The position numbers were made by a program, and so were the translations under genes. Shown piece after piece: positions 24,555 through 39,192 of a stretch of DNA of 46,577 nt. Numbering within the stretch: position 1 is the first letter of the stretch; the number at the start of each line of letters is the position of its first letter. Source of the stretch: Bacteroidetes bacterium MED-G13 (GTDB lineage Bacteria > Bacteroidota > Bacteroidia > Flavobacteriales > Flavobacteriaceae). Below the pieces are notes generated by a model, which saw nothing but the letters and a program-made list of their open reading frames with translations, made no database searches and had not been told where the DNA came from. Location of the stretch: the NCBI GenBank assembly GCA_002457735.1, contig NTKO01000004.1, forward strand, positions 1 through 46,577. Reading direction: 5' to 3'.

Positions 24555-27500
24555 TTACCTTAATAAAACAAAAACCCCTTTTAAATTAATTTTCTCGCCA
24601 AAAATCGTAGTACCGTTAACAACAATTAAGTAATTCCCACTTTCAGCTTTTTTACCATTTAGTATTCCGTCCCAACCCTGTAGATCAATACTATTTTCAT
24701 AATATATTAATGATCCAAAAGTGTCATAGACACTCATATTGATGTCATTTACACAATTATAAACAGGTCTGATAGTATCATTAATTCCATCATTATTTGG
24801 ACTGAATGCTGTTGGTAGCATTATACCAAAACCATCTGCTACCTCTATTTCCTGAGAGTATACTTCTATACAACCATAATTATATTGAACTGTAATTGTA
24901 GCCTCAAATTCTCCAACTGTCGTGTACTGATGTGTTACTACATCTCCCGAAACCAGTGGACTGCCGTCTCCAAAGTCCCATGTAATACCTAACACATCAC
25001 CATCTGACGTATTTGTAAATTCAATCTCTTCCAATACACCTAATCCACAATTTAAAGTTCCTATACTCACGTAATCAAATGAAGCTCCATTAACACTTAA
25101 GTCGTCTAAATCAACAATTATTTCGGTATCAACCTCACAACCATATTGATCGGTTACAATCACATTATAAACCCCATTCTGATAAGCTGTCATTTCTGTA
25201 TTATCTCCCAAACTTACAGCTCCAGCGGACCAGTCTATTTCATAAGGAGGTAATCCTCCCGAGATAGAAATATTATTTTGTTGTGTGACCAAACTGGTTT
25301 CGCAAACTGCAAAAGTTTGAGTAGTTAAATTGACAACCAAATCCTGTTGTCTAAAAATATTGAATACATTGGATGTATAAGCACAACCTTCATTGTCAGT
25401 AATTGTTACAAAGTAATCACCTGATGTAACTGCAGTTAAATTTTGGCTAATTGCCCCATTACTCCATAAAAAATTATAAACTCCTGAACCACCTGAAACT
25501 GTAATATCAATGGCTCCACTAAATGGATCATTACAATCAATTGCATCAGTTATATTAAAAGAGGTAATCGATATATCACTTAAAACAGAAATAGTAAAGG
25601 TCTCAGGATTGCCCGCACATGTCACACCACCATTTTCATAAGTTGGAGTAACTTCTATGGTTGCAACTATTGTACTTGTCGTATTGTTTATTGCAGTAAA
25701 TGATGGAATGTCTCCGGTACCACTTGCAGCTAAACCAATAGCTGGATTATCATTCGTCCACGCATAGGTGGTTGTACCATCTATGTTGGTCGTTGTAAAT
25801 AATATGTCATTTGTAAGCTCTCCATTACACAATACCTGATCAACTACAGAATCAACTTGTGCACCAGGATTTACGGTAATAGTGAAAGTCTCAGGATTGC
25901 CAGTGCTGCTAGTTCCACCATTCTCAAAGGTTGGGGTAACCTCTATGGTAGCGACAAATGTACTTGTTGTGTTGTTTATTGCGGTAAATGATGGAATGTC
26001 TCCGGTACCACTTGCAGCTAAGCCAATAGCTGGATTATCATTCGTCCACGCATAAGTAGTTGTGCCACCCGTATTTAAAGTGGAGAAATTAATATCTTCA
26101 ATCTCCTCTCCAGCACAAATAATACTGTTTTGAATTAATTCAACCTGTGGTACAGGATTTACTGTAATAGTGAAAGTCTCAGGATTACCAGTGTTACTAA
26201 CTCCGCCATTTTCAAAAGTTGGATTAACAGTAACTGTTGTCACTATTGGACTATTTCCCGTATTGGTTGCAATAAATTCGATATTGCCAGAGCCAGAGCT
26301 TTCCATTCCTGTAGAGGGATCTGTACTGGTCCATTCATAAGTATTTTCACCCCCAGAATTTGAACTAGAAAAAGGAATTTGGACTAAATCCCCATCATTG
26401 TATACAAGATCATCAATTTCATTAACTTGTGCATCTGGGTTGATCGTAATATTAAAATTAATTGGCTCTCCTGAACAGCTCAAACCATTTTCCTCAAAAC
26501 TCGGGATTACTTCAATTGTAGCAGATATAGGAATATCTCCATCGTTCACAGCAGCAAACTCAGAAATATTTTCATTACCGCTATTAGCTATACCTATATC
26601 AGTACTATCATTCGTCCACTGATAGGTTGTGGTTCCCCCAGTATTTATTGTAGTAAATTCAACTGGTCCAATTAATTCACCATTTGACACCACAATATTT
26701 TCAATATTATTGATCTGAGCCGTTGGATTTACGGATATACTGAAATTGATCGGATCCCCTTGATTTGAATTCCCTCCATTTGTAAAAGTAGGTGTTACAG
26801 TTATATTCGCTGTGATTGGCTGCTCTGAATTATTGGTAGCTAAAAAATCTAAATTTCCAGTACCCTCTGCAACCAGACCAATTTCAATATTATCATTAGT
26901 CCAAGAATATGTCATTGTTCCACCTGTTATGTTTGTGGAAAACTCAATTGAAAGATTTTCTTCATTACAAATGACCTGATCATCTACAGGATTTACCTGA
27001 GCTAGTGGGTTTACCGTCACAACGTAATTTGTTGGTAGTCCTTCACAATCAAATCCAACATCTCCTGTAGCAATTGCGGTATAAGTTACAGTTTGTGGCT
27101 CTGTAGTTGTGTTTAATAAAGTTTCGGGAGGGATTACATCAGTTTCAGACGTTGTAGATAAACCAGTAATTCCGTCCTCTGCTAATGCAGTCCAGGCAAA
27201 TGTCACACCATCCGTTGAACTTGATAAAGTAACAGGAACAGTTGAATTTCCACTTGTGATGAACTGATCATCCTCAGAGAATTCTACTTGAGGTGAAGGG
27301 TTAACGGTAATTGAGTATGTCTCTGATTCACCTTCACAACTTACATCATTGAATGTGTATATAGATGTCACAGTTATGTTTGCTGTAATCGGGGCTGTAG
27401 TAGAATTTGTAGTAGTAAAACTTGGGATATTTCCAGTTCCACTAGCGTCTAAACCAATATCAGTATTATCATTTGTCCATGTGTAAGAAATTTCTCCCGA

Positions 27501-30242
27501 ATCTTGAACTGTGTTGTCTGCAATTGTAGTATTAAACTCTACTGCTAGTGTATTATCCCCATTACACAAAACTTGATCAGGAATTGCATCAACAGAAACA
27601 GTTGGGTTTACAGTTATAACAATATCAAAGTCATCGCCATCACAACCATTATAATTTGGAGTAACGCTGTAAGTTAATGTCGCCGGATATTCACTTGTAT
27701 TGCTTAATTGATTACTAATTGATGACTGGGCTGATGCAGATATACCTCCGGTAACAGCATCCGTAGGATCACTTACGGGAGCAGGCCAGCTATAAGTTAT
27801 TCCAATTGGGACTATTTCAGTAGGAAAATTATCTATTGGTTGAATAGTAAATGTTTCACCATCACAAATTGTTTCTTCCTTATTGGCTATAACAGGGATT
27901 GGTTTAAGGGTTAAAGTATATTCAAATGGTGATCCAGCGCACCCATTAGCAATCGGGGTTATTGTATAAACTAAATCCTGGTCAGAATTAGTTAAATTTG
28001 TAATTATTTGAGATGGAATAAATGCAGTTGTGCCACTTTCAACATATCCAGTTAAGTTTTCATTTTCAGTTGCTACCCATGAATACGTTGTTCCATCAAC
28101 ATCTGAAGTTAAATCAAACTGAACTGATGGCTCCAAAGAACATATATCCTGAGATGTAATAGTATTGGTTATTGTCGGCTCTTGACTTAGTGTTATTATA
28201 ATAGTATCCGATGCTAGTGTGTCACAATTAGATCCAGCTGTGACAGTAATATTGTAGGTTCCAAAAGAATTTAACCGAATTGTTGGAAACTCATCAGTAC
28301 TATTTGTGTTATTTACAAAAGCATAATCATTACTGTCTATATTCAATCCGTTAACCGTCCAAGTATAATCGGACGGAGCAGAAAAACCATTTGAATAAAT
28401 TGGTATTAATTGATCAGAAAAATCAATAAGTAAAGAAGAAGTGGAACAAAATGTCATTGAATCTAACTCAATATCGACATCTGGGTTACCTAGGACATTT
28501 ATTGTTTCACTATTTGTGTCGGTACCACATTCGGTAGTAACTGACAAAGTTAAAATATAACTACCCGCTTCAGTAAAAGAAATAATTGGATTTTGACTTT
28601 GGAGTGTTGTGGGTATATTTTCAGAATCATTAAATAAGACATAACCAGAATCTGGTGAAATACTCCATAAATAAGTAGGGGTCTCATTTGCAAGCTCAAT
28701 ATCACATGTAACAGGAACAATATTTGACTCTCCCATCAAGTTTATAACATCATTTTCACAAACATCTCCAACGGGGCTAAAATTTGCTTCCGGAATATCT
28801 TCAATATTAATTATTCCAATATATTGAGATTCTGAAAGACAAGCAGCAGGGTTCACTGCTATTAATTTAATTTCCCAACAACCAATCTCATCGACATCAT
28901 TAGCAGGAATTATTAGATTTTCTCCTGACACCCAAGAATTATTTAGTAATGATACCGGTAAAAAATCTGAAAAGCTAGGTTTTTTGACTTGCCAATCATA
29001 ATTGACATCACCAGCACATTCTCCGGTAGTTGTTGGGTATGATCCTGGGATAGTAGTGTTATTAACCAAAATATCTTCGCTAATACACTGCTCAGCTGCA
29101 AGTTCAAACTGAGCATCAGGTGCCTCTGCAGTAGCAATATCTTTGGATGCCCCCAAACCATTTTGACTATAATTATCACATTGAGTATCAACTCCTTTAT
29201 TAAATAACTTGAAAGAAACCAAAAAACTTGAGTTACCATTTGCTGTACATGAAGCCTCCTCAAAAATATGTGTAATAGGATTTATAGGATCGCTATATAA
29301 TTCCAGTAACTGGGCTTGCGTGAGAATTAAATCTTCAGAACCATCACCAAAACTTATTATATAATAAGATCCCATAGAATTACTTCCAATTCCTAAGTCT
29401 CCAACATCAATATTAAATGTTACCTCCGCTCCAACGCAAACAGTTTCAGAAGATGCATTTCCAAAAATGGTTGCACTAGTATGAAAAATAAATGCTGAGC
29501 TGAAAAAAGTTGAAAATCCCTCGGTGGTAGTCTCATGAACCTGAATATTATAAGTTCCGACAAAAAGGTTTTCAGGAATTTGATAAACAGTTCCAGAAAT
29601 GGGGTTTAATGTAACAGAAGTTCCATCTGAAACATCAATTAAACTTACTTCTACTGAGCTTTGATCATTCATGGGAGTAACTGTAAAAAACTTATTACTA
29701 CTTGGCATATCAGCAGAGACAGAATTATAATTTTGATTATATGATCCAAAGAATGGATTTATTAAATTCACGTTATCATTTAAGCACTGAGTATAGCTTG
29801 AATTTGATTCAATATTTGAGGAGAGTGAAGGAGTGGAATTTATGGTTGAATTATTTACCGAAAAAAATTCTGTTTCTTCAACTAATTCTGGTTGTGTTGA
29901 CCTGATTCTTAATTTGTATTCGCCTGAATCAAGATTTTCAGGAAGAATACCATTTATTAAAGAAGTATAGAAGTCATTTGCTATATTTAAAACGGTTGGA
30001 TTATCAAAATCTCCACCAGGCTCTGAAAGCTCTAAAATAAAACTATTGTTAAGATTATCATCCAAATCAGCAGCATTTACAAAATCAAATATTCCAGAAG
30101 GGTTAATATGAACCGAAACAGAAGAACCAGAAGCATAAGAAACACTTGAGTTAAAATTAATTATCTCAATTTCTGCATCAGTTCCTTGAGGAAAAAGATT
30201 CAAGTAGGAAAATAATAAAATAAATAATAAAATATTTCTCAC
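24555..30242 (-). CDS. Giant SprB-like secreted adhesin with type B T9SS sorting domain
   Basis: This is a 1895-residue surface protein. A signal peptide (1-19) is followed by beta-rich PKD/Ig-like segments to about residue 680, one with SFGDGSEDL. Nine tandem PKD-like units of about 96 residues cover roughly 685-1551, each with VNP at the start, a TYxWTNDN core and a TGNPETFTI-like end. Then come two SprB-type repeats (about 1552-1710; GGSGVYNFLWSNG, GGLPPYEIDWS), a PKD domain with WDFGDGSP, and a C-terminal type B sorting domain (about 1808-1895; LPTAFSPNNDGINDT). It should be exported by T9SS and act as a gliding or attachment adhesin. SprF follows after 4 bases. Ligand unknown. Confidence 0.85.
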   Translation of the reverse strand: MRNILLFILLFSYLNLFPQGTDAEIEIINFNSSVSYASGSSVSVHINPSGIFDFVNAADLDDNLNNSFILELSEPGGDFDNPTVLNIANDFYTSLINGILPENLDSGEYKLRIRSTQPELVEETEFFSVNNSTINSTPSLSSNIESNSSYTQCLNDNVNLINPFFGSYNQNYNSVSADMPSSNKFFTVTPMNDQSSVEVSLIDVSDGTSVTLNPISGTVYQIPENLFVGTYNIQVHETTTEGFSTFFSSAFIFHTSATIFGNASSETVCVGAEVTFNIDVGDLGIGSNSMGSYYIISFGDGSEDLILTQAQLLELYSDPINPITHIFEEASCTANGNSSFLVSFKLFNKGVDTQCDNYSQNGLGASKDIATAEAPDAQFELAAEQCISEDILVNNTTIPGSYPTTTGECAGDVNYDWQVKKPSFSDFLPVSLLNNSWVSGENLIIPANDVDEIGCWEIKLIAVNPAACLSESQYIGIINIEDIPEANFSPVGDVCENDVINLMGESNIVPVTCDIELANETPTYLWSISPDSGYVLFNDSENIPTTLQSQNPIISFTEAGSYILTLSVTTECGTDTNSETINVLGNPDVDIELDSMTFCSTSSLLIDFSDQLIPIYSNGFSAPSDYTWTVNGLNIDSNDYAFVNNTNSTDEFPTIRLNSFGTYNITVTAGSNCDTLASDTIIITLSQEPTITNTITSQDICSLEPSVQFDLTSDVDGTTYSWVATENENLTGYVESGTTAFIPSQIITNLTNSDQDLVYTITPIANGCAGSPFEYTLTLKPIPVIANKEETICDGETFTIQPIDNFPTEIVPIGITYSWPAPVSDPTDAVTGGISASAQSSISNQLSNTSEYPATLTYSVTPNYNGCDGDDFDIVITVNPTVSVDAIPDQVLCNGDNTLAVEFNTTIADNTVQDSGEISYTWTNDNTDIGLDASGTGNIPSFTTTNSTTAPITANITVTSIYTFNDVSCEGESETYSITVNPSPQVEFSEDDQFITSGNSTVPVTLSSSTDGVTFAWTALAEDGITGLSTTSETDVIPPETLLNTTTEPQTVTYTAIATGDVGFDCEGLPTNYVVTVNPLAQVNPVDDQVICNEENLSIEFSTNITGGTMTYSWTNDNIEIGLVAEGTGNLDFLATNNSEQPITANITVTPTFTNGGNSNQGDPINFSISVNPTAQINNIENIVVSNGELIGPVEFTTINTGGTTTYQWTNDSTDIGIANSGNENISEFAAVNDGDIPISATIEVIPSFEENGLSCSGEPINFNITINPDAQVNEIDDLVYNDGDLVQIPFSSSNSGGENTYEWTSTDPSTGMESSGSGNIEFIATNTGNSPIVTTVTVNPTFENGGVSNTGNPETFTITVNPVPQVELIQNSIICAGEEIEDINFSTLNTGGTTTYAWTNDNPAIGLAASGTGDIPSFTAINNTTSTFVATIEVTPTFENGGTSSTGNPETFTITVNPGAQVDSVVDQVLCNGELTNDILFTTTNIDGTTTYAWTNDNPAIGLAASGTGDIPSFTAINNTTSTIVATIEVTPTYENGGVTCAGNPETFTISVLSDISITSFNITDAIDCNDPFSGAIDITVSGGSGVYNFLWSNGAISQNLTAVTSGDYFVTITDNEGCAYTSNVFNIFRQQDLVVNLTTQTFAVCETSLVTQQNNISISGGLPPYEIDWSAGAVSLGDNTEMTAYQNGVYNVIVTDQYGCEVDTEIIVDLDDLSVNGASFDYVSIGTLNCGLGVLEEIEFTNTSDGDVLGITWDFGDGSPLVSGDVVTHQYTTVGEFEATITVQYNYGCIEVYSQEIEVADGFGIMLPTAFSPNNDGINDTIRPVYNCVNDINMSVYDTFGSLIYYENSIDLQGWDGILNGKKAESGNYLIVVNGTTIFGEKINLKGVFVLLR
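25601..26464 (-). repeat. Tandem 288-bp coding repeats in the giant adhesin
   Basis: The segment TCTCAGGATT recurs at 25601, 25889 and 26177, an exact 288-base period (96 codons). The first two copies are nearly identical: 25681-25766 and 25969-26054 differ at 3 of 86 bases, and at protein level 36 consecutive residues are the same. The third copy is more diverged. Older, weaker copies continue to about 28190. This indicates a recent duplication within a longer repeat array. Confidence 0.9.
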
Positions 30243-30344: not shown

Positions 30345-30417
<73 letters not shown>

Positions 30418-30510: not shown

Positions 30511-31638
30511 TTACCAACTCCACATATCATGTTCAAAGTTTCTAATCTTTTCTTTAATTCTCTCCGACTCAAGTAATCTCTGAAATGCATTATCAGTTAT
30601 ATACTCACCAATTTTTCTATCTTCATACATATTCTCTTCCAAATATATCATAGTATGAAATCTTCTGGCATTTATTAGTTCATCAAAAGACTTTCTAACA
30701 ACGCTATTTCTATCACTAAACACATAAGAGTCCTTTAGAACATTCCTTGCATCAGGATAATATATCCAAAACATTTCTACAGGAGGGGTCCTTTCTTCAG
30801 GGCTTAGACCTGCATCCTCTTTTTTATTTAACACTTGCCTTGCAACAGGTGCAATCGCAAGCGGTCTATACTTTAATTCAGCAATTCTCTTATCAAAATA
30901 CCATATACCTTTAATTTTATAATGATCAATCATATCATAAGTAAACTCATACGTGTCAACATATTTGTCTCCATAATTTTCTTGAAACCAATCCATTAAT
31001 GCTGTATCACGAGTGTTTTCATATGCCTGCAGTTCATCTTTTTTAGTTTCATCATATTGTTGGTCAAATGAAAGGACGCTAAAATATTCATCTAAATCTG
31101 CAATACTATCATACTGCGCTCCTAATGGAATTTCATTATTCATTATAAAGAAGTTACGACTACCACTAGCTTGTGTGTCAATAACGTCTCTACCTCTTCT
31201 GTTTATTTCTCTGTAGGATAAGCCTTGAAAATCTGTATTCTTATTTACGAAATCATCATACGTAATCTTGTTATTAAATTTTCCATCATCATATATTTTT
31301 GTTATATCACCGCGTTCAATTCCTTTTAGCAAATAGTAGATTAATGGTCTTCTTTCTTTTCCAACAACCATTGTATCGATTGGATATAAGTATGGAAAGT
31401 TTACCCGTTGGTCCAAATCAATAACTTCCCAAATAACTTTAGAAAACAGAATATCTCTATCATCAACATAACCATATTCAAGTTTTTGATCCTCATCTTG
31501 TCTAATCTGCATATCATCTCTGACGCCAATATCAGCAGGGTCCTTAGCATTTAGAATATTAACCTGCGAAAATGTTTCAAAACAGATTGAAATAACTAAA
31601 ATAAAAAGTATTAAATATTTATTTCTCATTAATTTCAT
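30511..31638 (-). CDS. gldN: Type IX secretion/gliding protein GldN (PorN)
   Basis: GldN is a periplasmic partner of GldK in the ring structure of the type IX secretion system. A signal peptide ends near TFSQ; then the recognised family pattern follows: DIGVRDDMQIRQDED, DDRDILFSKVIWEVIDLDQRVNFPYLYP, and IERGDITKIYDD. The C-terminus contains MFWIYYPDARNVLKDSYVFSDRNS. The 375-residue length is a little longer than many GldN proteins; residues about 125-225 include an acidic insertion-like part. Two ATGs (31638 and 31629) could start it. It is the last gene of gldKLMN, 4 bases after gldM. Confidence 0.92.
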   Translation of the reverse strand: MKLMRNKYLILFILVISICFETFSQVNILNAKDPADIGVRDDMQIRQDEDQKLEYGYVDDRDILFSKVIWEVIDLDQRVNFPYLYPIDTMVVGKERRPLIYYLLKGIERGDITKIYDDGKFNNKITYDDFVNKNTDFQGLSYREINRRGRDVIDTQASGSRNFFIMNNEIPLGAQYDSIADLDEYFSVLSFDQQYDETKKDELQAYENTRDTALMDWFQENYGDKYVDTYEFTYDMIDHYKIKGIWYFDKRIAELKYRPLAIAPVARQVLNKKEDAGLSPEERTPPVEMFWIYYPDARNVLKDSYVFSDRNSVVRKSFDELINARRFHTMIYLEENMYEDRKIGEYITDNAFQRLLESERIKEKIRNFEHDMWSW

Positions 31639-31642
31639 TTAA

Positions 31643-33256
31643 TTACATTAGGGTAAATGATGTTGATCTAGCATCTTTTATCTGCGTTGCTGTTCCAATA
31701 GCTGATGTTTTTATATCTGAAATTCTAACCAAGGAATTTCTTCCTGCTCTATCAATTGCCCGCTTTGCAGCAGCTGATAGTTCATCTCCAGTACAATCAA
31801 AAGAACCTATGCCCTCAACGGTTAACTTAAAACTCTGAACTCTAAGTCTTAACTCAAAATTAAAAGATTCACCAAATCCAGCTGTAATTCTTGCACCTTT
31901 AAAGTTAGCCTTTGTCAAGACTTCAGGATTATCTCCATCAACACTTCCAAAGGGGGTTGGCAAAGGCTTAATGTTGAATTTAACCTTTGATGAGACTTTC
32001 TCTCCAGATGGGAGTTCTCCGATCACTAGGATATCTAATTCACGCTTTCCAGCTATTTCTCTAATAGGCTTACTCAAATCTAACTCATAATCATTTGGCC
32101 CATTTAAAGTCTTTTTTCTTCCTCTATCAAAAATTGTTTTACCTTTCTTCAGTCCTGGGGTTCTGGCTGTAACCTTATTAGCAGGAATACCTGCAAAAGA
32201 AATGGTAAAAGGATTTGATACACCTTGATATACAGTATTCATCTTATCAGCAGAGATTGTTGCAGTATTAGGTTTTGGAACAACAGCATATTTACTATTA
32301 ACAGGAATTGTAATTACTTCACCTTCTTCAATAAACTGAAATTCTCCCTCGATTTCCCTTTCTCCAATTCTTCCTGCGGGAAACTTAACCAATGTTTGAC
32401 CTTCTTGCATAGACTCTTCTCCTAATTCAACACCGTTAATAATTACTTTATCCGCCTTTAATGTCTTGTCGTTCTTACCAAGAATAATTCGACCAGTAAA
32501 ATTTTCTCCAGCAAAAAATGCATTTTTGTCTGGAATCACGATGGCATCAAAATTGGTTAGCGAGGCTTCAATTTTAAGTTTACCCTCAAGCATGGTGGAT
32601 AGTAACTGAGCTTCGATATTTTTGACAGATGATTGAAGTAGCGTCATTTTAGTAATGGAAGCAATTAAAGGGAATCCTTTAAAATGATAATCTAAATATT
32701 CTAGGGCTTTCCCCTGCACAGGCTGAACCTTTTCAGTAGAAAATTTAGATAAAACTTCCTCTCCAATTGAAGCAAGCTTTGGATCATCACTTGCTATTCT
32801 AGCAAATTCATTTCTGTAAGAATTCATTTCATTTAAAAATCTTTGGCCCTCTTCTTTTAAGGCAGCGCCGTCAAAAAACAATTGATCAAAATAAACAGTC
32901 TTGTCTAATTTTTCATAAGCTGTTCTGCTAATATTTGATCTCTCAGCATCGGCATAAGCACCGTCTTTCAGTGACTCCAAGTAATTATAGAACTTTCCTG
33001 AGATCTCACGTATTGAGTCAGCCTTTAATTTCAAATCAAGGTATTTCGCAGCTTGTTCTTCAGCTTTTTCTTCTAAACCCTGCATGAATTGATCATTTCT
33101 TTCTTGTAACTCTAAATTTGTTTCAGATAATTCTTCGGTCATACTTCCAAAAGCAGTTAAAACTTCTTTGGACATATTAAGGGCCAACATGGCGATAAAT
33201 ATGAGATACATCATATTTATCATTTTTTGCCTTGGACTTTCTTTACTTCCAGCCAT
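31643..33256 (-). CDS. gldM: Type IX secretion/gliding motor protein GldM (PorM)
   Basis: GldM spans the inner membrane through one N-terminal helix and reaches across the periplasm to the GldK/N ring; with GldL it forms the proton-driven motor. The protein begins with a cytoplasmic stub and the helix MINMMYLIFIAMLALNMS, including the conserved motor-type segment. A long helical region (about 35-220) and then beta domains (about 220-537) match its known elongated four-domain shape. At 537 residues it is full length. It lies 24 bases after gldL. Confidence 0.95.
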   Translation of the reverse strand: MAGSKESPRQKMINMMYLIFIAMLALNMSKEVLTAFGSMTEELSETNLELQERNDQFMQGLEEKAEEQAAKYLDLKLKADSIREISGKFYNYLESLKDGAYADAERSNISRTAYEKLDKTVYFDQLFFDGAALKEEGQRFLNEMNSYRNEFARIASDDPKLASIGEEVLSKFSTEKVQPVQGKALEYLDYHFKGFPLIASITKMTLLQSSVKNIEAQLLSTMLEGKLKIEASLTNFDAIVIPDKNAFFAGENFTGRIILGKNDKTLKADKVIINGVELGEESMQEGQTLVKFPAGRIGEREIEGEFQFIEEGEVITIPVNSKYAVVPKPNTATISADKMNTVYQGVSNPFTISFAGIPANKVTARTPGLKKGKTIFDRGRKKTLNGPNDYELDLSKPIREIAGKRELDILVIGELPSGEKVSSKVKFNIKPLPTPFGSVDGDNPEVLTKANFKGARITAGFGESFNFELRLRVQSFKLTVEGIGSFDCTGDELSAAAKRAIDRAGRNSLVRISDIKTSAIGTATQIKDARSTSFTLM

Positions 33257-33280: not shown

Positions 33281-33811
33281 TTATTTTTTTGTCATTGCAC
33301 TTAAAACTCCGCCATAAACAGAATTCAAAGATTCTAGATTACTGGATAAAGCTGCCATTTGTTTTGTTAACTCATTAGCGTTTGTGGCAAAATCTTTATT
33401 AATTTTTACCATACTCTGCGCACTTTCAGCGCCAGTTTTGGCAGATGTTTCAAAGTCTTTAATACTTTTAGATAAGCTTGAAATAAGATCTTTGTCTAAT
33501 TTTGCCTCTTGTAGCATATTATCAAGTTTTTTAGATAGTAATCCACCAGGTGATTTTGCTGCTCCGCCTCCAAGTTCAGGATATACTTTTTCCCAATCAT
33601 ATTCCTTGTCCTCTTTTGCCATGTCAGGATCAACTGCAGAATAAGCAAAAATCAATGCCTCCACAACAAGGCCAATAGTTAGCATCGTATTGGCGGCAGA
33701 TGGCCAAAAGTCAGGACTAAAGTGTGTTATTTTCATGAGGGCCCCAATAATAACAATTGCAGCTCCGAATCCATAAATTGCATTACTTACTTTTTTACTT
33801 AGTTTAAACAT
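33281..33811 (-). CDS. gldL: Type IX secretion/gliding motor protein GldL (PorL)
   Basis: GldL is the inner-membrane stator-like partner of GldM. Two membrane helices are visible (about 9-27 and 37-56); the first ends in MKITHF and the second contains the Glu of VVEALIFAYSA, the residue type linked to proton use. A cytoplasmic tail follows, with coiled-coil character (LDKDLISSLSKSIKDFETSAK). The protein has 176 residues, shorter than the roughly 200 or more I expect for many GldL proteins; the shortening is in the C-terminal tail. It is 25 bases downstream of gldK. Confidence 0.93.
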   Translation of the reverse strand: MFKLSKKVSNAIYGFGAAIVIIGALMKITHFSPDFWPSAANTMLTIGLVVEALIFAYSAVDPDMAKEDKEYDWEKVYPELGGGAAKSPGGLLSKKLDNMLQEAKLDKDLISSLSKSIKDFETSAKTGAESAQSMVKINKDFATNANELTKQMAALSSNLESLNSVYGGVLSAMTKK

Positions 33812-33836: not shown

Positions 33837-35450
33837 TTAATTTATTGAACTTTTTCTATTATTCTGTCTTCTTACAGAAGTATTAGTCATTGCATTAGCA
33901 CTGTAATCTGTACCAAGGTAATCATTTACAGTTCTAAATCCAATGTAACTTCTTGCCTGATCTGCATACTCATAATCTCTAGAGCTTACCTGTAAAAAAT
34001 ACTTTACATCTTTCCAGGAACCACCTCGGATAATTTTTTTCTTGTTAGTTGATTTATTCACATTTGGATTCATTGTTATAGAGAAATCATACGCCTCAGG
34101 CTCATAAGATGAGTCTACCCACTCAGATACATTTCCCGCCATATTGTAAAGATTATAACCATTTGGATCATATGCATTAGCTTCAACGGTGTATAATGCC
34201 TGATCAACAGCATAATCACCTCTCATTGGCTTGAAATTTGCCATAAAACATCCTCTATCATTTTTGGTGTAAGGGCCACCCCATGGATATGTTGCTCCCT
34301 GCAAACCACCTCTGGCAGCATACTCCCATTCAGCTTCAGTTGGAAGTCTAAATTTTGGAACTAAGCTCTTTTTCTTTTTAGTCTTTTGATAAGCATTTTT
34401 AGTAATTGTTCTCCATTCACAAAATGCTTGAGCTTGATGCCAAGTAACACCAACAACAGGATATTCACTATACGCATCATGCCAAAAATAATCATTGTGC
34501 ATGGGTTCGTTGTAAGAATATTTAAAATCTCTTATCCACACCGTTGTGTCAGGATAAATTGGAACCGGAACTTCGGTAATAAAATTACTTCTTTTCAAAT
34601 CAGGAAATTCATTCTGCATAAATTTATCAGTAATCTCAATTTCATCCTCAATATCAAAAGTTCCTTCTTTGTATAAAACAAACTTTGGGAAGCTTCCTGA
34701 AGTAGTAACTTCCTCATATCCCTCAGCTAATAAAGCGCTAATTAAATCTATTTTTCTTTCATCCATTTTTCTTAGATATCCATCACCTCCAGACAAATTT
34801 TTAAACTTGTGTCTGTAAATGAATTTCTCTACATCCCAAGTTCTGATATCGTTAAAAACTTCTGTTTCGTTGAGAAAAAAATCTTCAACTATCTCCAAAT
34901 AATCTAAATCAGGATAATCTTCTCTTTCTAATATAATATCGGTATCCCAATTTAACTTGCGCTTTGCATAATATTCATCATCTGTTGCAGAAATATCATT
35001 TTCAAGCTTCCATTTATCGTAAACAGACATGTCAGAGGTATCCTTATCAATAAAAGCATATTCACGAATTCCATCAGTACTTTCTGAAGCAGGTTCATCA
35101 GAGTTCATAACTTCTTCAGCTCTAATAGCCAATGCAGTTCTTAAAACAGAATCTCTTACCCAGTTCACAAATTGTCTATATTCTGAATTTGTAATTTCAG
35201 TTTCATCCATGTAAAAGGATTTTACTGTTACAGTTTTAGTGGGTGCATCTTCAACTGATGCTAAGTCGTCATCAGATTTACCCATGATAAAAGACCCTCC
35301 AGGGACTAAAACCATGCCATATGGTTTCTCAGGAAAAAACTTATTTCCCTTGACTCCAACGAGCTCTCCTTTAGATTTATTAAGATTACCATTAGAGCCA
35401 CAACTCATGAAAATGGATAGAACTACTAAGACTGTAAAAAATTTTTTCAT
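33837..35450 (-). CDS. gldK: Type IX secretion/gliding lipoprotein GldK (PorK)
   Basis: GldK is an outer-membrane lipoprotein that forms the periplasmic ring with GldN. The signal ends at a lipobox-like FMSC with Cys17. The remainder has the formylglycine-generating-enzyme (SUMF1-like) fold used non-catalytically: GMVLVPGGSFIMG near residue 44, DETEITNSEYRQFV, PVVGVTWHQAQAFCEWR, FRLPTEAEWEYAARGG, NMAGNVSEWV and IIRGGSWKD. A roughly 200-residue insertion (about 110-310) separates the first and later motifs. It is the first of gldKLMN. Confidence 0.95.
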   Translation of the reverse strand: MKKFFTVLVVLSIFMSCGSNGNLNKSKGELVGVKGNKFFPEKPYGMVLVPGGSFIMGKSDDDLASVEDAPTKTVTVKSFYMDETEITNSEYRQFVNWVRDSVLRTALAIRAEEVMNSDEPASESTDGIREYAFIDKDTSDMSVYDKWKLENDISATDDEYYAKRKLNWDTDIILEREDYPDLDYLEIVEDFFLNETEVFNDIRTWDVEKFIYRHKFKNLSGGDGYLRKMDERKIDLISALLAEGYEEVTTSGSFPKFVLYKEGTFDIEDEIEITDKFMQNEFPDLKRSNFITEVPVPIYPDTTVWIRDFKYSYNEPMHNDYFWHDAYSEYPVVGVTWHQAQAFCEWRTITKNAYQKTKKKKSLVPKFRLPTEAEWEYAARGGLQGATYPWGGPYTKNDRGCFMANFKPMRGDYAVDQALYTVEANAYDPNGYNLYNMAGNVSEWVDSSYEPEAYDFSITMNPNVNKSTNKKKIIRGGSWKDVKYFLQVSSRDYEYADQARSYIGFRTVNDYLGTDYSANAMTNTSVRRQNNRKSSIN

Positions 35451-35542: not shown

Positions 35543-36730
35543 TTAAAGTATATTTTTCTTCAAGGCTTTAAACCATCTTTCAGGGATATTTCCAGATTGT
35601 GCTAGCTCATAATCCTCAAAGGTACATGGTAATAACGTATTTTCATTAAAATTATTATTTTCTTCTTCACTTGGTATTTTTATCCACCATCTGGATGAAA
35701 TTTTATTTTTTAAGAAAATAAGTTCATATTCTTCTATTGAGGCAGTATATTTTTCAAAGTCTTCTAAATTAGTAAAATCACTATCATTTACCCTACAATT
35801 TATACCTTCAATAAAATACCATATAATTTGAGCAATTAAATTTTCTGTTAATTCATCTTCATTTGAGGACTTATACTCATAAATACCAAATGATGAAACT
35901 TTATTACTGATTCCTGCGTATCTACTTAAACTGCAGATTTCTTTACCGTCAAATCCATTTGGTGAGAACTTTTGCCTAGAGCTTAATTCCGATGCTTTAA
36001 TTGACTTCATATCGATAGAAACAATGTGCGCATCCCTTAGAACTGGTTCAGCCAAACTTAATTTTTGACACACATCACCAAGTCGGTACATTTCAAAATA
36101 TAAATTTTGCATCAAATCAATTTCTTCTTGTGAATTATGATATGTCTGAAAGCCAAGGTTTGAATAATTGAACAAATTATGTGGTTCATCTAATATGATT
36201 TTTCCCAAATAACTCATATTGTTCATATCTTTGGAAGAATCACCTAAATCAAAATTTGAGTCAATATTAACAATGTTTACTGTTTTTTTTAAGTCGTCGT
36301 ATGCACGGTAAGTAGCATAAACTAAATCCTGACTACCACCAATTATAATTGGAATAATTCTCTTTTCATTTAAAATATTCAGTAAAGAATTTAATCTCGA
36401 ATATGTTTGCGAAACATCTTCGCCAAGAATTAAATCCCCCAAATCTGAAATTACAGTTGACCAATTCCCAGGGTAAAGTGCATATAATGATTGTCTAATC
36501 TCATTTAAACTTTGTTCATCACCAACATAATTTACTGAGTTTCGATATTCGTTTACACCTACAATTGCAATATCAACATTGTCAAGATCAGGAATACCTT
36601 TTTCAGAGGTGTGAATTTTTATTTTATTGCCTAAAATTAACGAGGAAACAAGATCATTATGTAATAAAATCTGTTCATCCACCGGCTTTAATAAATTATC
36701 AAATAGTGAGGTTAAAAAATCTGCAGCCAT
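35543..36730 (-). CDS. Degenerate arginase/formimidoylglutamase-fold protein
   Basis: This 395-residue protein is a ureohydrolase-family member by layout, but its metal-binding motifs are altered. The usual GGxHD is GGSQD at 131-135 (Gln134 replaces His). The usual DAHxD is DSNFD at 157-161 (Asn159 replaces His). The usual SxDxDxxDP is SIDMKSIKAS at 238-247, which keeps only the first Asp. The NGFDGKEICSLSRYAG stretch afterwards keeps family character. A dimanganese urea-forming site therefore looks lost. It starts 2 bases after topA and precedes gldK by 92 bases. I infer a non-catalytic binding or structural role. Confidence 0.8.
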   Translation of the reverse strand: MAADFLTSLFDNLLKPVDEQILLHNDLVSSLILGNKIKIHTSEKGIPDLDNVDIAIVGVNEYRNSVNYVGDEQSLNEIRQSLYALYPGNWSTVISDLGDLILGEDVSQTYSRLNSLLNILNEKRIIPIIIGGSQDLVYATYRAYDDLKKTVNIVNIDSNFDLGDSSKDMNNMSYLGKIILDEPHNLFNYSNLGFQTYHNSQEEIDLMQNLYFEMYRLGDVCQKLSLAEPVLRDAHIVSIDMKSIKASELSSRQKFSPNGFDGKEICSLSRYAGISNKVSSFGIYEYKSSNEDELTENLIAQIIWYFIEGINCRVNDSDFTNLEDFEKYTASIEEYELIFLKNKISSRWWIKIPSEEENNNFNENTLLPCTFEDYELAQSGNIPERWFKALKKNIL

Positions 36731-36732
36731 TA

Positions 36733-39192
36733 TTATGTTTTTTTATTAGTGCTTGCTGAATAAATATTTTTTGCTTGATCAATATCCATGCTATGAACAT
36801 CTAAGTTTTTATCAAGCAGAATTCTTTTTTTACCTTTCACAAGATAAAATTTACCCCATCTTCCCTTTTCAATACTAATCTTTTCATCTTCCCAATTATG
36901 AATAATTTTTTCTCTTTCCTTTGTTTTTTTATTTTCAATCAGCTCTTCAATTTCATTTATTTTCAAATTTTCCCAATCATAATTCTTTGACACATTGATA
37001 AAAATATTATTCCATTTAATGTAAGGACCAAACCTTCCCTTTCCTTTTTGTACATCAAAACCTTCATAAATATGAATTGGCTTATCTGCCTCTAACTTTT
37101 CCCTAATAAGAAAGATTGACTTTTCAATGTCAATTTCATTTGGTGAGATCCCCGCAGGAATGGAAATAAATTTATTCCCAAATTTTAGGTATGGACCATA
37201 CCTACCATTGTTAGCAATAATTTTTTCACCGTTAAACTCACCAACTTTACGAGGAAGATTAAATAAAGATAAAGCCTCTTTTAGAGTTACTGACTCAATT
37301 TGAAACTCAGAACTTAGTGATGCAAATCTTGGTTTTTCATCATCATCAATAGTACCAATTTGAACCATCGGCCCAAATTTACCTAACCTCACACTAACCT
37401 CCTTCTTGTTTTCGGGATGTTCACCCAAAATTCTTTTACCGCTTTCTCTTGAGGCATTTTGTTGAACATTTTCAACAACTGGGTGGAAATTACCATAAAA
37501 ACTTTTCATCATGGATGTCCAATCTTTTTTGCCTTCTGCAATACTATCAAAATCCTGTTCAACTCGTGCAGTAAAGTTATAATCCATAATATCTCCAAAA
37601 TGATTGATTAAAAAATCTGTAACAATCATACCGATGTCAGTTGGTACAAGTTTACCTTTATCTGATCCATATTTTTCAATTACCGTGTTTTTTTCAACTT
37701 TACCAGAGCTTAAAACAATTTGAGTAATCTCCCTTGACTTAGCTTCATTTGTACCTTTTTCAATGTAACCTCGATTCTGAATAGTTGAAATTGTAGGGGC
37801 ATATGTCGATGGTCTACCGATACCTAATTCTTCTAATCTTTTGACTAGCGATGCTTCAGAAAATCTGAATGGTGGTTTGGAAAATCTTTGAGTGGCTATC
37901 ATTTTAACTAAATCAATTTGATCTTTTACCTCCAAATTGGGTAAAATTCCTTTTCCTTCTTCCCCATCATTTTCCTTGGATATCGAGTATATTTTTAAAA
38001 AACCATCAAACTTAATTACCTCACCAGAGGCAATAAATATTTCATTATTTGAAGAAGCAAGAATTTTTACATTAGTTTTTTCTATTTCAGCCTCCTTCAT
38101 TTGTGAAGCAATAGTTCTGTTAAAAATTAAATTATATAACCTTTTTTGATCATAATCAGCAATTGATTCCTGGTTTAAGAAAAAGTCAGTTGGCCTGACA
38201 GCCTCATGTGCTTGTTGTGCATTTTTTGTTTTTACGTTATAATTTTTTGGGTTTGAATAAGACTTTCCAAACTTGGAGGTTATAAAATCTTTGGCTTTAT
38301 CTATTGCAATTGAAGATAAATTAACACTGTCAGTTCTCATGTATGTAATATGCCCTGCTTCATACAATCTTTGAGCAACACTCATTGTCTTAGAAACAGA
38401 AAATGAAAGTTTTCTAGAAGATTCCTGCTGTAGAGTCGATGTTGTAAAAGGTGCTGGAGCATATCGCTTTGAAGGTTTTTTGGAAACCTCAGAAACGGAA
38501 AAAGTTGAAGAAATACAATTATTTAAAAAATCTTGGGCTAAAATTAAATCCTCAAATTCTTTCTCAAGTTTTGCTTTAAAATCTATTCCATCATCATTTT
38601 TAAATATAACATCAATTTTAAAAGAAGACTTAGGCTTGTGACTTCTAATTTCCCTTTCTTTTTCAACAAGAAGTCTAACAGCTACGGATTGAACTCTTCC
38701 TGCTGATAACCCACCTTTGACCTTTCTCCACAGAACAGGTGAAAGTTCATAGCCAACAATTCTATCAAGTACTCTTCTAGCTTGTTGCGCATCAACAAGA
38801 TTAACATCAATAGATCTGGGGTTATTTATCGCATTTGTAATTGCCTTTTTTGTAATTTCATTGAAAACAATTCTTTTTGTTGAACTATCATTAAGCTTAA
38901 GAGTTCTGAATAAATGCCAAGCGATTGCCTCTCCTTCCCTATCTTCATCACTTGCTAGCCATACTGTCTTTGATTTTTTAACTAAACCCAAAAGAGTTTT
39001 AACAACAGTTTTTTTATCTGCAGAAACTTCATATTTAGGCTCGAAACTTCCTTCAACATCAATTCCTAGATTCTTTGATGGCAGGTCAGAAATATGACCA
39101 AAACTAGATGCTACTTTATAGTCTGGTCCCAAAAACTTTTCAATTGTTTTTGCTTTAGCAGGGGACTCAACAATTACTAAATTTTCAGCCAT
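36733..39192 (-). CDS. topA: DNA topoisomerase I (type IA)
   Basis: TopA relaxes negative supercoils through a transient 5'-phosphotyrosine link. The Toprim domain starts LVIVESPAKAKTIEKFLG with SDEDREGEAIAWH; the active-site Tyr is residue 284 in HITYMRTDS. The region GIGRPSTYAPTISTIQNRGYI is also characteristic. The C-terminus has four short basic repeats (for example NNGRYGPYLKFG, GKGRFGPYIKW and EKGRWGKFYLV) instead of the four-Cys zinc fingers of E. coli TopA, as in other Bacteroidota. Length 819 residues. It heads the minus-strand run topA-arginase-like-gldKLMN. Confidence 0.96.
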   Translation of the reverse strand: MAENLVIVESPAKAKTIEKFLGPDYKVASSFGHISDLPSKNLGIDVEGSFEPKYEVSADKKTVVKTLLGLVKKSKTVWLASDEDREGEAIAWHLFRTLKLNDSSTKRIVFNEITKKAITNAINNPRSIDVNLVDAQQARRVLDRIVGYELSPVLWRKVKGGLSAGRVQSVAVRLLVEKEREIRSHKPKSSFKIDVIFKNDDGIDFKAKLEKEFEDLILAQDFLNNCISSTFSVSEVSKKPSKRYAPAPFTTSTLQQESSRKLSFSVSKTMSVAQRLYEAGHITYMRTDSVNLSSIAIDKAKDFITSKFGKSYSNPKNYNVKTKNAQQAHEAVRPTDFFLNQESIADYDQKRLYNLIFNRTIASQMKEAEIEKTNVKILASSNNEIFIASGEVIKFDGFLKIYSISKENDGEEGKGILPNLEVKDQIDLVKMIATQRFSKPPFRFSEASLVKRLEELGIGRPSTYAPTISTIQNRGYIEKGTNEAKSREITQIVLSSGKVEKNTVIEKYGSDKGKLVPTDIGMIVTDFLINHFGDIMDYNFTARVEQDFDSIAEGKKDWTSMMKSFYGNFHPVVENVQQNASRESGKRILGEHPENKKEVSVRLGKFGPMVQIGTIDDDEKPRFASLSSEFQIESVTLKEALSLFNLPRKVGEFNGEKIIANNGRYGPYLKFGNKFISIPAGISPNEIDIEKSIFLIREKLEADKPIHIYEGFDVQKGKGRFGPYIKWNNIFINVSKNYDWENLKINEIEELIENKKTKEREKIIHNWEDEKISIEKGRWGKFYLVKGKKRILLDKNLDVHSMDIDQAKNIYSASTNKKT

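Follow-up and report, generated by a model that had tools for sequence, protein, structure and literature searches.

Background

Metal-free members of the ureohydrolase superfamily have been described. According to Hai et al. (2015), as cited in PMC11271267, the arginase-like protein of T. brucei (PDB 4rhm) has the ureohydrolase fold and naturally lacks the binuclear manganese site; its role is not known (see also PMC10820115). MetCb (PDB 8ryi/8x3g/8snf) is a metal-free ureohydrolase pseudoenzyme as well, and a demonstrated binding partner (PMC11271267). In type IX secretion (T9SS), the cytoplasmic protein PorX binds PorL (PMC5005315). Our search of open-access full text returned nothing relevant on a gene beside gldK/topA, or on arginase-like pseudoenzymes with type IX secretion.

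Results and discussion

A gene under purifying selection between topA and gldK

The window, i.e., the whole stretch of DNA that we analysed, comprises 46,577 nucleotides from Bacteroidetes bacterium MED-G13. The gene under study lies in it in the following order of transcription:

36733..39192, minus strand, topA, upstream neighbour, 2 nt before the start codon of the next gene (PF01131, 1e-117)
35543..36730, minus strand, pseudo-ureohydrolase gene, 395 aa (open reading frame and translation)
33837..35450, minus strand, gldK, downstream neighbour, 92 nt after the stop codon of the preceding gene (FGE-sulfatase domain typical of GldK, and syntenic position)
33281..33811, minus strand, gldL (PF22827, 2e-25)
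31643..33256, minus strand, gldM (PF12081, 5e-41, and three further GldM domains)
30511..31638, minus strand, gldN (PF19841, 1e-50)

The frame, the length and the motifs given by the initial annotation match exactly, and the strand is minus. Annotation pipelines would name this gene as a member of the formimidoylglutamase/arginase family. Its divergence from the closest relative, a 95% identical orthologue (L032), with dN 0.025, dS 0.62 and dN/dS of about 0.04, indicates a working gene under purifying selection. That the gene is under selection rather than a pseudogene, as originally proposed from the open frame, is therefore borne out by a measured ratio. In this closest pair the pseudoenzyme evolves as slowly as the adjoining secretion gene, its dN being equal to that of gldK and lower than those of topA, gldL, gldM and gldN.

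Two other features of the window may be mentioned. The gldL gene encodes only 176 aa, whereas the open frames of its relatives are usually of about 210-235 aa. Downstream of gldN, and separated from it by a tRNA gene (30345-30417, minus strand), lies a gene (24555-30242, minus strand) for a 1895-aa protein with PKD repeats, an SprB repeat and a CHU_C type IX secretion signal, which by these domains is probably a large T9SS-exported surface protein.

A ureohydrolase core with an altered metal site

The Pfam Arginase model PF00491 matches residues 53-306 of the protein (4.2e-12, 46.6 bits against a cut-off of 22), and the AlphaFold2 model of the 395-aa protein (pLDDT 89, pTM 0.91) has as its best VIA-align match the structure 2a0m (Z 33.5, rmsd 2.4, 278 aligned residues). 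Residues 22-315 align to the formimidoylglutamases of T. cruzi and B. subtilis with Z 32-33.5 and rmsd 2.3-2.4, and formimidoylglutamases are also the best solved relatives by sequence. By its PF00491 score and its predicted fold, the protein belongs to the ureohydrolase (arginase) superfamily. However, it scores far below the cut-offs of the two NCBIfam equivalog models, with 62.2 bits against 229 for hutG (TIGR01227) and 19.4 bits against 174 for agmatinase (TIGR01230), and hence is a member of neither. The core and the former metal motifs are located as follows:

35786..36667, minus strand, ureohydrolase-fold core, residues 22-315 (AlphaFold2 model and VIA-align match to 2a0m)
36326..36340, minus strand, first of the former metal motifs, GGSQD (131-135), with Gln134 in place of the ligand His
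36248..36262, minus strand, second of the former metal motifs, DSNFD (157-161), with Asn159 in place of the ligand His; Lys/Arg in most relatives
35990..36019, minus strand, former metal motif 3, SIDMKSIKAS (238-247), Asp240 retained, second ligand Asp replaced by Lys242

The initial annotation had described all three motifs as altered, and we confirmed each of them. The superfamily binds its metals through six residues, which correspond to positions 134, 157, 159, 161, 240 and 242 of the window protein. Here the protein has Q-D-N-D-D-K, as opposed to the canonical binuclear H-D-H-D-D-D of a catalytic ureohydrolase, and thus retains three of the six ligands (D157, D161 and D240). Among 196 relatives, three canonical ligands are found in 152 members, four in 15 and fewer in 29, and none has five or six. 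As a matched control, eight true ureohydrolase paralogues of the class, together with one further sequence (L141), show H,D,H,D,D,D at the same columns with one exception. Taken together, these counts and the intact control paralogues identify the loss of the metal site as a family trait. In three deep members (L196, L198 and L199) the metal motifs have disappeared, but RWW and the Cys/Asp-Tyr motif remain.

The original observation is also favoured by the result that not one of the 196 relatives has intact or near-intact metal motifs. The claim that the metal sites are lost needs to be qualified, though: no member has more than four ligands, but D157, D161 and D240 persist, and with these common aspartates some members might still bind one metal ion, which would speak against a dead enzyme. 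Nor are the particular substitutions fixed: across the relatives, Lys, Arg and Asn predominate at position 159, and His occurs at position 134 in a minority of them, including one 74% identical to the window protein (L033). We accordingly dropped the loss of H134 as a diagnostic feature. The ligand pattern suggests that metal-dependent hydrolysis has been lost.

These data also bear on the automatic name. Formimidoylglutamases are the closest characterised relatives, and the genome carries a histidine ammonia-lyase gene, yet both His ligands and one Asp ligand are gone, the hutG score is low as given above, and true ureohydrolase paralogues with intact sites coexist with the pseudoenzyme family in other Bacteroidia. 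Moreover, the histidine ammonia-lyase gene is a stand-alone hutH (578 bits, above the cut-off; contig C5, L266:7210-8712) that adjoins gcvT and yebC, not the pseudoenzyme gene. A HutG role of gene 35543-36730 is thus unlikely, and we give hardly any credence to a still-working formimidoylglutamase with an unusual site. According to one published genome description, a histidine-degradation pathway is missing "except for formiminoglutamase" (PMC11278836); this lone enzyme would fit a putative misannotated member of the pseudoenzyme family.

One vertically inherited family across the class Bacteroidia

In the maximum-likelihood tree, a branch with 100/100 support splits 53 family rows from the eight labelled true enzymes and L141. 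The latter sequence (from genome G013), first fetched as a weak match, was rejected as a family member and removed from the counts because it is placed among the true enzymes; L201 (G569) was likewise left out of the tallies, as it looks like a true HutG. The family is present in about 325 of the 346 sampled Bacteroidia genomes. Judging from the tree and from this distribution, the pseudo-ureohydrolases are one monophyletic, vertically inherited, class-wide family of Bacteroidia. The family is nearly universal in a bacterial class that ranks among the most abundant, and it would carry a misleading enzyme name. The earlier description of the protein as a conserved pseudoenzyme holds for the family under purifying selection.

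Could the protein assist an active ureohydrolase as a non-catalytic subunit, in the way that MetCb partners MetCa? There is a precedent in the same superfamily (PMC11271267), and many free-living members of the class carry two to four PF00491 genes. On the other hand, the neighbours of the gene are topA and gldK, with no ureohydrolase adjoining it, and a targeted PF00491 search of its own genome (82% complete) found the single gene 35543-36730 and no second one. (A broader class-wide PF00491 survey missed even this gene in its own genome.) We therefore regard such a partnership as quite improbable.

A conserved C-terminal extension

The protein continues beyond the ureohydrolase core into a region that the initial annotation missed, although it contains several of the protein's best conserved positions:

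35546..35785, minus strand, Bacteroidia-specific C-terminal extension, residues 316-395 (beta strands and two helices; true paralogues are without it)
35609..35689, minus strand, most conserved part of the extension, W348-W349 ... C369-xxx-D373-Y374 (column survey)

W348 occurs in 195, C369 in 193 and Y374 in 189 of the 196 members. When we ranked conservation over 57 representatives of less than 60% identity, leaving out the start Met, the top sites were W348, W304, C369, W349, Q195, F339, Y374, E228, R232 and R79, and the ligand positions ranked only 44-234. Within the core, the motif E228-P-x-x-R232 together with W304 is invariant in the family. The family and the true ureohydrolases have some of the conserved residues in common (D96, G98, G259, and partly R79 and Q195). 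By contrast, E228, P229, R232, W304 and all of the extension from about residue 315 onward are essentially absent from the true enzymes; the eight of these and L141 end before, or a few residues into, the start of the extension. An extension-only profile matched 58 of the 61 Bacteroidia genomes of a phylum sample and, among the matches listed, none of the 186 other genomes, always within an open frame of about 290-430 aa. Searches of the extension against Pfam matched no family, and those against PDB sequences gave no significant match. The extension modelled alone with modest confidence (pLDDT 72, pTM 0.59) had no significant Foldseek fold match, which does not imply a new fold.

It had been suggested earlier that the protein might sense a ligand. 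For the old active site this idea loses force, since conservation is higher at many sites other than the ligand positions. The aromatic-rich signature rather suggests packing and binding than hydrolysis. The reading we favour, with a confidence a little better than even, is that a catalytically dead ureohydrolase has taken on a binding or scaffold role in the cytosol by means of its C-terminal module. The binding role is proposed from conservation, and the cytosolic location is presumed since no signal peptide is evident.

A dead-ureohydrolase family would have been in place by the time the class Bacteroidia diversified. Its core would have lost the second metal site, with the His of motif 2 changed to Lys/Arg/Asn and the second Asp of motif 3 to Lys/Ser/Gly/Asn, and, freed of catalysis, may survive as a folded, presumably cytosolic platform. 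The surface under selection would then consist of the extension (F339, W348, W349, C369, D373, Y374, R385 and W386) together with E228-P-x-x-R232 and W304 of the core, and it most likely binds a conserved protein or small-molecule partner.

The same residues could be read otherwise, since the invariant polar C369, D373, E228, R232 and Q195 might just as well be parts of a new active site. The extension and the core invariants would then make up a different enzyme, metal-free or single-metal. In line with this are both the invariant residues that lie away from the old site (Cys, Asp, Tyr, Glu, Arg and Gln) and the three Asp that most members keep within it. However, many of the top sites are aromatic (W304, W348, W349, F339 and Y374), as is more typical of packing or binding, and we recognised no known catalytic constellation among the invariant residues. 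We consider a new enzyme unlikely.

Gene neighbourhood and the possible link to type IX secretion

According to the initial annotation, similar altered arginase-like proteins lie near topA in other Bacteroidota, and the topA-gldK neighbourhood indeed proved conserved over a wide range. Of the 109 loci from the taxonomic family of the window, 108 have topA upstream and 107 have gldK downstream; the few exceptions break off close to the gene. The order topA-(pseudoenzyme)-(porP)-gldKLMN is found in most Flavobacteriales, and the same topA-to-gldKLMN order also in six families of other lineages (f18, f21, f22, f35, f42 and f81); in several other taxonomic families a PorP/SprF gene stands between the pseudoenzyme gene and gldK. 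One locus (L259) retains the entire block, with miaB, an NtrC-type regulator and groL all in place. In contrast, in a family of the same order (f5) the gene is mostly beside topA with gldK/gldL elsewhere, and most deep-branching families have it close to neither topA nor the gld genes. The synteny is thus old and widely retained, yet dispensable.

Two side observations concern these loci. Where the gene is unlinked from topA/gld (L179, L180, L182, L184, L189 and L190), it is often head to head with an SDR/NAD-epimerase-like gene, a neighbour called from its sequence and seen in six taxonomic families. In six close marine relatives (L035, L036, L038, L039, L040 and L041), gldM is only 27-35% identical to that of the window, as is gldN in most of them where it was detected, while their topA, pseudoenzyme and gldK genes are 61-76% identical; by these identities, gldM/gldN have possibly been replaced, or are fast-evolving, in these relatives.

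A cytoplasmic accessory or regulator of T9SS/gliding, for instance one that docks on the cytoplasmic part of GldL and is co-regulated with gldKLMN, would account for the conserved gene order, and PorX provides a precedent (PMC5005315). Co-occurrence is strong too: among the 296 genomes of the order sample, 222 have both the pseudoenzyme and GldL, four the pseudoenzyme only (all incomplete genomes), 10 GldL only, and 60 neither, those listed being mainly of about 0.6 Mb. In the class sample (n=346, corrected for L201), about 323 genomes have both, two the pseudoenzyme only, 15 GldM only, and six neither. However, shared ancestry and reduced genomes without both inflate these counts, and we discounted the Fisher test of co-occurrence as evidence because the genomes are related. 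More importantly, the gene occurs neither only with nor always with the T9SS core. The 15 T9SS-positive genomes of the class sample that are without it fall into f33, f46, f69, f79, f80 and f89. Conversely, in one 99% complete genome (G513) that has a full-length gene with the complete C-terminal signature, neither GldM nor GldN was found, although a congener (G332) has both; the other pseudoenzyme-only genome (G552) is a fragmented one with a weak GldN match.

As the pseudoenzyme and T9SS are separable both ways, an obligatory secretion role is not supported, and neither, in the form given, is the earlier proposal of a job tied to secretion or gliding, the gene being unlinked from the gld genes in f5 and most deep taxa besides. 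A dedicated secretion role is possible, but the evidence does not require it, and an accessory T9SS role in some lineages is also possible; a cytoplasmic T9SS/gliding accessory as outlined above seems to us rather doubtful. For the favoured binding or scaffold protein, a housekeeping function would fit better than a T9SS-dedicated one. The family may represent either a missing cytoplasmic player in gliding/secretion or a housekeeping factor. As a tentative proposal, to which we attach slightly more weight than to the T9SS accessory, a Bacteroidia-defining pseudoenzyme with an undescribed C-terminal domain might, in lineages that retain the operon, serve as a cytosolic factor through which cell physiology is coupled to the T9SS/gliding motor. 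Alternatively, its invariant W/C/D-Y/E/R site might have acquired a new activity.

Comparison with known systems

The HutG structures (PDB 3m1r of B. subtilis; 4mxr/2a0m of T. cruzi) are the best sequence match and have their fold in common with residues 22-315, but the window protein differs from them by its lost metal site, by an identity of only 16-18%, by its score below the hutG cut-off and by the additional 80-residue C-terminal extension. The T9SS core GldK-L-M-N and PorP are conserved neighbours of the pseudoenzyme, with no sequence relation to it and with a separable phyletic distribution.

The nearest analogues are the metal-free ureohydrolases MetCb and the T. brucei arginase-like protein. 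MetCb works with the active MetCa from the same gene cluster, whereas no such partner lies beside the window gene. The title of the T. brucei quadruple-mutant PDB entry (R151H) implies a natural Arg at the position of a ligand His, which would resemble the Lys/Arg at position 159 here if the two positions are equivalent. We know of no counterpart of the C-terminal extension in the T. brucei protein. That protein is confined to a single eukaryotic lineage, with a presumably unrelated origin, as opposed to the class-wide bacterial family described here. A ureohydrolase-fold pseudoenzyme is thus of a known kind; a class-wide, vertically inherited family of them with a C-terminal module of its own is new.
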